Shown one piece after another: positions 36,763 to 38,418 of a stretch of 64,000 nucleotides of DNA; position 1 is the stretch's first letter, and each line of letters begins with the position of its first letter. Below the pieces are notes generated by a model. That model did no database searches. It was given only the letters and a program-made list of their open reading frames with translations, and was not told where the DNA came from. Source of the stretch: Arcobacter sp. EP1 (GTDB lineage Bacteria; Campylobacterota; Campylobacteria; Campylobacterales; Arcobacteraceae); NCBI GenBank assembly GCA_001655195.1, contig LPNY01000021.1, positions 426 through 64,425 on the forward strand. Direction: 5' to 3'. Both the position numbers and the translations under genes were made by a program.

Positions 36763-36776
36763 CCACCCTTAAGTGG
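36763..36776. promoter_or_regulatory. Palindromic operator-like site 1 (Rrf2 promoter, distal)
   Basis: CCACCCTTAAGTGG resembles the CTACCT-N2-AGGTAG palindrome found three more times in this locus; four outer bases on each side are complementary. It lies 105 bases before the Rrf2 gene and is the weakest match of the four. Confidence 0.4.
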
Positions 36777-36808
36777 TATATGGAATAGTAGTTAAATAAA
36801 ACTTAATT

Positions 36809-36822
36809 CTACCTTTAAGTAG
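36809..36822. promoter_or_regulatory. Palindromic operator-like site 2 (Rrf2 promoter, proximal)
   Basis: CTACCTTTAAGTAG lies 46 bases (centre to centre) from site 1 and just upstream of a likely -10 (TATACT, 36846-36851). The surrounding 27 bases (36801-36827) match those at 37688-37714 with a single difference, so this is a long shared element. The likely ligand is the Rrf2 protein encoded downstream. Confidence 0.6.
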
Positions 36823-36880
36823 TATTATTTTAAGGAAAATTGTAATATACTATAAAATCTAATAAAAAGTAGCTTATATA

Positions 36881-37291
36881 ATGAAATTAAATACTACATC
36901 ACAATATGCTATAAGAATTCTAACACTCATAGCAATTGACAATGAAAAACGTTACAATGCAAAAGAATTATCTCAAAAACTAATGATTCCTTATAAATAT
37001 CTAACTAAAGTAATGACCTACTTAGTTAATGCAGAACTTATTGTATCTTTAAGAGGAAGAGAAGGTGGTTATGTTCTGAATAAAGAGGCTAAAGATATCT
37101 TTGTTGTTGATATTTTGGATGCGGTAAAAGAACAAATAGATAAAAAAATGTGCCTACTGGGCGTTGGTTTATGTACAGGAAGTAATAAGTGTGCACTTCA
37201 TGACGACTGGCAAGAACCCAAAAAACTCCTCAATAAAATGTTTTCAAAAAAGAGTTTAGAGGAATTAAAAAAACAAGCAACCAAACTATAA
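36881..37291 (+). CDS. Rrf2-family transcriptional regulator with three-cysteine cluster motif
   Basis: The 136-residue protein has the Rrf2 winged-helix: LNTTSQYAIRILTLIA (helix 1), NAKELSQKLMIPYKYLTKVM (recognition region) and SLRGREGGYVL (wing). Three cysteines at 91, 98 and 104 (C-x6-C-x5-C) match the Fe-S ligands of IscR/NsrR-type members, with one extra residue in the first gap. It probably senses Fe-S status, nitric oxide or oxidants. Two palindromes in its own promoter imply autoregulation. No isc/suf genes are adjacent, so it is not clearly IscR. Confidence 0.88.
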   Translation: MKLNTTSQYAIRILTLIAIDNEKRYNAKELSQKLMIPYKYLTKVMTYLVNAELIVSLRGREGGYVLNKEAKDIFVVDILDAVKEQIDKKMCLLGVGLCTGSNKCALHDDWQEPKKLLNKMFSKKSLEELKKQATKL

Positions 37292-37313
37292 AAAGAGAAA
37301 ATCTCTTTTTATA
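37287..37313. terminator. Bidirectional terminator between convergent genes
   Basis: TATAAAAAGAGA (37287-37298) pairs perfectly with 37302-37313 around an AAA loop. It serves the Rrf2 gene on the plus strand and the secreted-protein gene on the minus strand, covering both stop codons. Confidence 0.82.
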
Positions 37314-37629
37314 ATCCGATAACTTTATAAGCTCCTGTATCATCTCTTTTTACGCTTAGGTGATTAAACTCTTGATTATCTAAAATAACATCATAGTTTC
37401 CAAACTCAGATTTTTGTTGAACATCAATAACATTAATATCTCTAAAATAGACAATGTGATTATCGATACTATTCAACTTTTCTAATGCATTGGGTGCTAA
37501 CAGTACTGACATCTCTTTATTATTCATTGTTTTTAATGCTTTTAAAAACTGTTGTGTTACTTTTTCAACAACAATTTCATTTGCAAACAGACTACCTACC
37601 ATTGTTACTAATAGTATTAATTTTTTCAT
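37309..37629 (-). CDS. Small secreted protein, likely Rrf2 target
   Basis: The 106-residue protein has a signal peptide (about 1-16, MKKLILLVTMVGSLFA). The mature part (EIVVEKVTQQFLKALKTMNN...) resembles small periplasmic SnoaL/NTF2-like or DUF4440-type folds in outline, but no motif is firm. It has no cysteine or haem motif. Its start codon lies 19 bases from a perfect CTACCTGCAGGTAG palindrome, and a second one lies 48 bases farther up, so it is the most likely regulated gene of the neighbouring Rrf2 protein. AAGGAAAG is the ribosome site. Confidence 0.65.
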   Translation of the reverse strand: MKKLILLVTMVGSLFANEIVVEKVTQQFLKALKTMNNKEMSVLLAPNALEKLNSIDNHIVYFRDINVIDVQQKSEFGNYDVILDNQEFNHLSVKRDDTGAYKVIGL

Positions 37630-37647
37630 TTTCTTTCCTTATTATTA

Positions 37648-37661
37648 CTACCTGCAGGTAG
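37648..37661. promoter_or_regulatory. Palindromic operator-like site 3 (secreted-protein promoter, proximal)
   Basis: CTACCTGCAGGTAG is a perfect 14-base palindrome located just before the ribosome site of the minus-strand gene, where a bound protein would block transcription. It is the best match of the four related sites. Confidence 0.6.
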
Positions 37662-37695
37662 TATTTAAAGAATAGTATTATAGCTTTACTTAATT

Positions 37696-37709
37696 CTACC
37701 TTTAGGTAG
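37696..37709. promoter_or_regulatory. Palindromic operator-like site 4 (divergent promoter region)
   Basis: CTACCTTTAGGTAG has perfect six-base arms and lies 48 bases from site 3 and 121 bases before the plus-strand gene at 37831. It could control both divergent genes. Its flanks match site 2. Confidence 0.6.
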
Positions 37710-37830
37710 TATTTAAGTATATCTTTTATTTTTTGTAATAGTACCTTTTAAGTACCTTTTCCTTTTATAATTATAAAAGATAAAAACTAGAACTGTAAAT
37801 TCATTGAAATTATAGTTTGGGATAAGCACG

Positions 37831-38418
37831 ATGAAAATTTTAATTTATGACAACTGCCACAGTGAGCTTGAAGCTCTGTACAATATGTTAATCAACATTT
37901 CAGATGAATTTAAAATCGATAAAGTCATGGAGACAAAAAGGGGTTACCTACTCTATGAAGAGCATAACCATGATTTTATTTTTATCAATAGTGACTGCCA
38001 CCATGGCAAAAACTTCCTAAATGAAATTCACAACAAAAATCCTCAACAAAATCTTATTGCACTCTCAGATAGTCTAAATTGTACGGATAATATTAAATGT
38101 AGTTTTTGTAAACAAGAAGACAATAAATTTCTACTTGTACGACCTATTTACTCTAATGATCTTTTCTATTTGTTGTTAGGAAACAACAAACGCCCTACAT
38201 ATTGTGATAATAACCAAATATTAAAACGGCTAAAAAAGATTGATCAAAATTTTCATAATTTTGATTTCTGCATTGAGAATAAAATGTTTGTTAATAAAAA
38301 TAGTTTTTTAAAACGTGATGAAAAAGTTTTTAATCTATTAACTCAACTAAAATTGCAAAATATTCCTTATGAGATTGACTCCACAAAAAATATTAAAATT
38401 TTAGAGCAAGAAAATTAA
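37831..38418 (+). CDS. Degenerate receiver-like protein with cysteine motif
   Basis: The first 120 residues of this 195-residue protein follow the CheY layout: MKILIYDNCHSELEALYNML (strand 1, helix 1), DFIFINSD (strand 3), LIALSD (strand 4) and LLVRPIYSNDLFYLL (strand 5, helix 5). The phosphoacceptor Asp is replaced by Asn53, the strand 1 acidic pair is reduced to one Asp, and the conserved Lys is Arg104, so phosphorylation is unlikely. A C84-x5-C90-x2-C93 set sits between strands 4 and 5. The C-terminal 75 residues are unrecognised. It may be a phosphorylation-independent or metal/redox-sensing pseudo-receiver. Confidence 0.6.
   Translation: MKILIYDNCHSELEALYNMLINISDEFKIDKVMETKRGYLLYEEHNHDFIFINSDCHHGKNFLNEIHNKNPQQNLIALSDSLNCTDNIKCSFCKQEDNKFLLVRPIYSNDLFYLLLGNNKRPTYCDNNQILKRLKKIDQNFHNFDFCIENKMFVNKNSFLKRDEKVFNLLTQLKLQNIPYEIDSTKNIKILEQEN

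Follow-up and report, generated by a model that had tools for sequence, protein, structure and literature searches.

Genes and operators at the locus

The window, by which we mean the whole 64,000-nucleotide stretch of DNA that was analysed, carries two convergent genes at the locus under study. An Rrf2-family regulator of 136 residues, with the cysteine and histidine pattern C91-X6-C98-X5-C104-X2-H107, is encoded at 36881..37291 on the + strand, and a protein of 106 residues, with a putative Sec-type signal peptide recognised by eye and without family match, at 37309..37629 on the - strand. A terminator-like stem, found by pattern scan only, lies between the two genes at 37280..37320. The module is adjoined at 37831-38418 by a gene for a protein of 195 residues, with a weak match to receiver domains (E 0.054).

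Each gene is preceded by a pair of palindromes. Upstream of the Rrf2 gene are site 1 (CCACCCTTAAGTGG, 36763..36776), a decayed operator which matches the motif CTACCT-N2-AGGTAG at 8 of 12 positions and sits where nor-linked relatives have their norC-side site, and site 2 (CTACCTTTAAGTAG, 36809..36822), which matches at 11 of 12 positions with a single mismatch. The secreted-protein gene is preceded by two perfect operators, site 3 (CTACCTGCAGGTAG, 37648..37661), 18 bases from the start codon, and site 4 (CTACCTTTAGGTAG, 37696..37709), about at the expected -35 region. The original prediction had placed four sites at 36763, 36809, 37648 and 37696, in two pairs with spacings of 46 bases (sites 1 and 2) and 48 bases (sites 3 and 4), and these coordinates and spacings were reproduced; of its statement that all four share the motif, the part on sites 2, 3 and 4 (at most one mismatch) stood, and the part on site 1, with only 8/12, was generous. 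The 27-base stretches that contain sites 2 and 4 (36801-36827 and 37688-37714) were likewise found to be almost identical, with two differences.

Between the operators of the secreted-protein gene, a TATAAT at 37677..37682 (- strand) was read from the sequence as a possible -10; a good -35 hexamer was not found in this promoter, and the TATAAT was not among the elements listed by the promoter scan. For the Rrf2 gene, both sites are located upstream of its likely -10, so that autoregulation of another kind is possible.

A loose motif search of the window, allowing up to 3 mismatches, returned 15 sites against 13.5 expected; as this is background, only tight, paired sites carry meaning. In 100 shuffled windows, zero pairs of equal quality were obtained at 44-50 spacing. 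Sites without mismatch to CTACCTNNARGTAG are confined to the window locus in the whole 3.0 Mb genome, and the additional sites with 1 mismatch are mostly intragenic. A genome-wide search for other targets with a degenerate pattern was uninformative, with 70 matches compared to 83 in the reversed control. One of these 1-mismatch sites, the related palindrome CTACTTAAAAGTAG, is found between sufB- and sufC-like genes of the window genome (L006:1501-1514; G000:C38:282565); it could be fortuitous or point to a connection with Fe-S assembly.

The secreted protein and the adjoining gene

A clear homolog of the 106-residue protein was found in one other genome only, G058, where the module has the same arrangement; the two proteins are 50% identical, and the distance from the near operator to the start codon is 18 bases in the window and 17 in G058. 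Searching 399 genomes of the order yielded no clear homologs beyond these two, the weak matches being parts of larger ORFs, and none were found on plasmids. Weak matches in the family (best E 1e-5; G026, G004) fall in much larger proteins, of some 670 residues, and were discarded as noise. The fold predicted from the two sequences has low confidence, with a mean pLDDT of 48, and comparison of the model with the PDB gave no usable match.

The gene at 37831-38418 had been proposed as a divergent pseudo-receiver gene possibly under the same control. We dropped it as a target of the regulator, given its weak receiver match and the situation in G058, the one further genome that has the module, where it does not stand opposite the secreted-protein gene.

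The Rrf2 regulator and its orthologs

Over its whole length, the regulator exceeds the cut-offs of the curated Rrf2 models PF02082 (92.6 bits, cut-off 30) and TIGR00738 (101.3, cut-off 73.3), and stays below those of the equivalog models for NsrR (NF008240, a model of the enterobacterial-type NsrR; 33.2 bits, cut-off 182) and IscR (TIGR02010; 79.7 bits, cut-off 207.55). Its closest relatives among solved structures are IscR proteins. Orthologs, defined in the family by an E-value below 1e-28, are present in 27 of the 104 family genomes. The protein had been described as an Fe-S-type Rrf2 regulator with three cysteines; Cys91, Cys98 and Cys104 are indeed in place, and His107 has to be added to them. 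All four residues are invariant across the 27 family orthologs, and residue 8 is Gln, Lys or Glu, with Asp in none.

In a protein tree, which was built from few columns and rooted for drawing only, the regulators of the window and G058 form one group (100/97), nested inside a larger one that otherwise consists mainly of nor-linked members.

Operator pairs in related genomes

To follow the operators beyond the window, we compiled 107 non-redundant loci from family, class and named genomes, and counted as a pair two sites of at least 9/12, 44-50 bases apart, upstream of the Rrf2 gene. Such pairs are present in 61 of the 107 loci, with a control mean of 0.02. The spacings of the 61 best pairs include 45 (21 loci), 46 (21), 47 (12) and 49 bases (4, quinol-type), so that 54 of 61 fall at 45-47. 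In the usual arrangement, the regulator and the nor genes are divergent and have a common promoter with a palindrome pair: of the loci with a divergent norC or quinol nitric oxide (NO) reductase gene, 60/74 carry a pair no more than 160 bases from its start codon, with the near site 19-23 bases before that codon in 56 of the 60. The fixed spacing makes cooperative binding of the paired sites plausible.

When the family was searched with the pattern, pairs on both strands turned up at the Rrf2 locus of 12 of the 104 genomes and nowhere else, along with a single one-strand match outside this locus; five single matches came from the reversed control. Further strict sites of the family were considered and discarded, several of them representing one intragenic stretch that is common to genomes with and without the regulator. 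The co-occurrence of motif and Rrf2 gene that the original prediction had named as a check was borne out, in that paired strict sites track the Rrf2 gene through the 104 genomes and the class instead of being scattered.

The promoter of the secreted-protein gene aligns with norC promoters over both sites and the intervening stretch. The pair of the Rrf2 gene, read in the opposite direction, also resembles a norC promoter that no norC follows; the nor-side site of this pair is weak, at 8/12 in the window genome and 9/12 in G058. Judged by its sequence, the pair appears to be a remnant of a divergent nor promoter that has been lost.

Link to nitric oxide reductase genes

Genes for NO reductases are the prevailing neighbours of the regulator. 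They were found near it in about 85 of the 107 loci, which are mutually related and partly selected by protein similarity, such that counts over them, those of the operator pairs included, do not equal independent events. The typical neighbourhood of an ortholog comprises norC-norB with norD, norQ, norE and norF, or a quinol NO reductase. The identities of NorB, NorC and the quinol NO reductase were checked against solved structures, and NorE has a COX3 match; norD, norQ, norE and norF are presumably what we call them, the names being assigned by gene position and by what is generally known about nor operons. Further neighbours are nrdD/nrdG (anaerobic ribonucleotide reductase), a globin, and a NirK-like protein below the NirK cut-off. 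For 14 of the 107 orthologs, part of them on short contigs, an NO-related partner was not seen in the available sequence.

In the family, a NorB of type A (74-100% identity) occurs in 17 genomes and a quinol NO reductase in 4. Either of the two is present in 21 of the 27 genomes with the regulator and in 0 of the 77 without it (Fisher p 6e-17, relatedness ignored). A second NorB type (36-40% identity), adjoining nirS in the two genomes inspected (the window genome and G058), is found in genomes with and without the regulator. Type-A NorB is absent from the window genome and from G058, both of which carry the nirS-linked type. Around the norCB genes of the window genome, beside nirS on contig C38, no site with up to 2 mismatches was found within the surrounding 19.5 kb.

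Several neighbourhoods deserve separate mention. Regulator orthologs adjoin nrdD/nrdG in L065:944-3528, L066:6513-9927, L213, L215 and L216, with a perfect palindrome directly upstream of nrdD in L065. A more distant relative of the regulator (L131:414-1914) is encoded near a globin gene, a gene for an HPP-like membrane protein, and norQ/norD. In two Bacteroidota assemblies (L209, L211), we found related Rrf2 genes, one of which adjoins a quinol NO reductase; the pairing of regulator and nor may extend beyond Campylobacterota or may have been transferred. In Sulfurovum-like genomes (L258:5189-7465; also L128, L129), a like Rrf2 gene with one palindrome faces a two-gene operon for a COX1-family heme-copper protein of 551 residues, distant to solved oxidases, and a partner of 195 residues without Pfam match. 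This operon possibly encodes another kind of NO reductase.

Proposed explanation and alternatives

We consider it likely that the module in the window belongs to a Campylobacterota circuit built on an NO-responsive Fe-S Rrf2 repressor, and that its nor target has been replaced here by an orphan secreted protein. The regulator, with three cysteines and one histidine as IscR-like ligands, probably acts as a repressor that responds to NO; we infer operator binding, repression, NO as the signal and the order of evolutionary events from sequence comparison. In the proposed mechanism, without NO, dimers would occupy the two palindromes, about 47 bases apart and flanking the -10, and thereby block transcription. 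NO would damage the Fe-S cluster, the repressor would be released and the target expressed. In most relatives, the divergently oriented norCB or quinol NO reductase genes would be this target. The window genome and G058 would have lost that nor operon. In both, the operator pair at the promoter of the regulator itself has remained in partly decayed form, and another norC-type promoter, which is intact, would drive the small exported protein. In the window, one operator of that promoter would lie over the -35 region and the other just past the transcription start. The protein itself is predicted to be exported and may act in the cell envelope under NO stress. The order of the tree would fit a scenario in which nor was lost and the target replaced, as the loci with the secreted-protein gene group inside its mostly nor-linked part.

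That the regulator controls both itself and the secreted-protein gene via paired sites, as first suggested, is supported by the comparative data, the spacing being conserved across the class. The suggestion of an undescribed stress circuit has to be withdrawn: as the relatives show an association with NO reductase, the circuit is of a described kind, namely NsrR-like NO control. More tentatively, and with rather more doubt than conviction, the regulators could be taken as a distinct, Campylobacterota-wide class of NO sensors that govern NO reduction, with IscR-type ligands and a paired operator of their own, re-wired here to a hitherto unknown periplasmic NO-responsive or protective protein.

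Because of the ligand set, the main alternative is IscR-like sensing of Fe-S supply, iron or redox, with nor targeted since both NO reductase and anaerobic ribonucleotide reductase belong to the anaerobic enzymes rich in iron. It would account for the Cys-Cys-Cys-His ligands, for IscR as the nearest solved structure, for the single imperfect site between the sufB- and sufC-like genes and for nrdDG beside some orthologs. We regard it as unlikely, as nor genes dominate the neighbours and, within the family, the regulator co-occurs with a single nor lineage and with the quinol NO reductase; moreover, in the listed neighbourhoods, scanned by eye only, no isc/suf operon was noticed beside the regulator.

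Two further readings were weighed. If the regulator merely regulated itself in the window genome, the second pair would be a non-functional remnant of a moved or duplicated nor promoter, in line with the rearranged appearance of the module and with a secreted gene that is an orphan of two species. However, it is sites 3 and 4 that are perfect, whereas the pair of the Rrf2 gene is decayed, and both species have kept start-codon geometry and TATAAT, with secreted proteins that are only half identical, so that we give this reading a distinctly low probability. The palindromes might also be repeats that arose by chance, or serve as operators for a different factor, as the background-level counts of loose matches in the window and of the degenerate pattern in the genome would allow. 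Against this stand the strict paired sites, which follow the Rrf2 gene across genomes; by that comparison, a chance origin is already excluded, any other factor would need to accompany the Rrf2 gene without exception, and we hold this last reading to be very improbable as a whole. The NO-responsive repressor circuit is thus the explanation we favour.

Significance

Campylobacterota abound in numerous sulfidic and vent environments, and to our knowledge NO control in them is known mainly from the Crp-type NssR of Campylobacter. In the open-licence literature, subscription papers aside, we found no Rrf2 protein of this phylum described as regulating NO reductase. If the proposed explanation is true, a single operator motif offers a route to NO-responsive genes phylum-wide, the ligand set would help to examine which residues turn an Rrf2 protein into a sensor of NO, and the secreted protein would be a candidate NO-stress protein identified via its promoter alone.

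Comparison with known regulators

The regulator is like IscR in having Cys, Cys, Cys and His at matching positions (C91, C98, C104 and H107; Cys92, Cys98, Cys104 and His107 in E. coli IscR, PMC5411485). It is unlike IscR in scoring below the curated cut-off (80 vs 208 bits) and in adjoining nor genes, not isc/suf operons recognised by eye. IscR operator motifs also differ from CTACCT-N2-AGGTAG.

With NssR of Campylobacter jejuni, the regulator has the phylum and the presumed context of nitrosative stress and NO in common, but not the protein family: NssR, a nitrosative-stress regulator that controls a globin, is an unrelated activator of the Crp/Fnr family with the motif TTAAC-N4-GTTAA (PMC1274295).

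NsrR, as known from E. coli and Streptomyces coelicolor, shares with the regulator the Rrf2 fold, three cysteines and, presumably, a small NO-related regulon and autoregulation. Its gene stands beside NO-removing genes, a context that recurs here both in the neighbourhoods of the regulator and in its co-occurrence with NO reductases across the family. In the literature, motifs and regulons of NsrR have been described for gamma- and beta-proteobacteria, Bacillus and Streptomyces (PMC1274295). In S. coelicolor NsrR, Asp8 is the fourth cluster ligand (PMC5411485), whereas the present orthologs have Gln, Lys or Glu at that position and an invariant His107. The NsrR operator is gATGyAT-N5-ATrCATc (PMC1274295), unlike the CTACCT-N2-AGGTAG found here, which comes in pairs, and the score of the regulator is far under the curated NsrR cut-off (33 vs 182 bits). 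Judged from its sequence and context, the regulator would act like NsrR, yet it departs from NsrR in the eighth residue, in its operator and in its score against the curated model.
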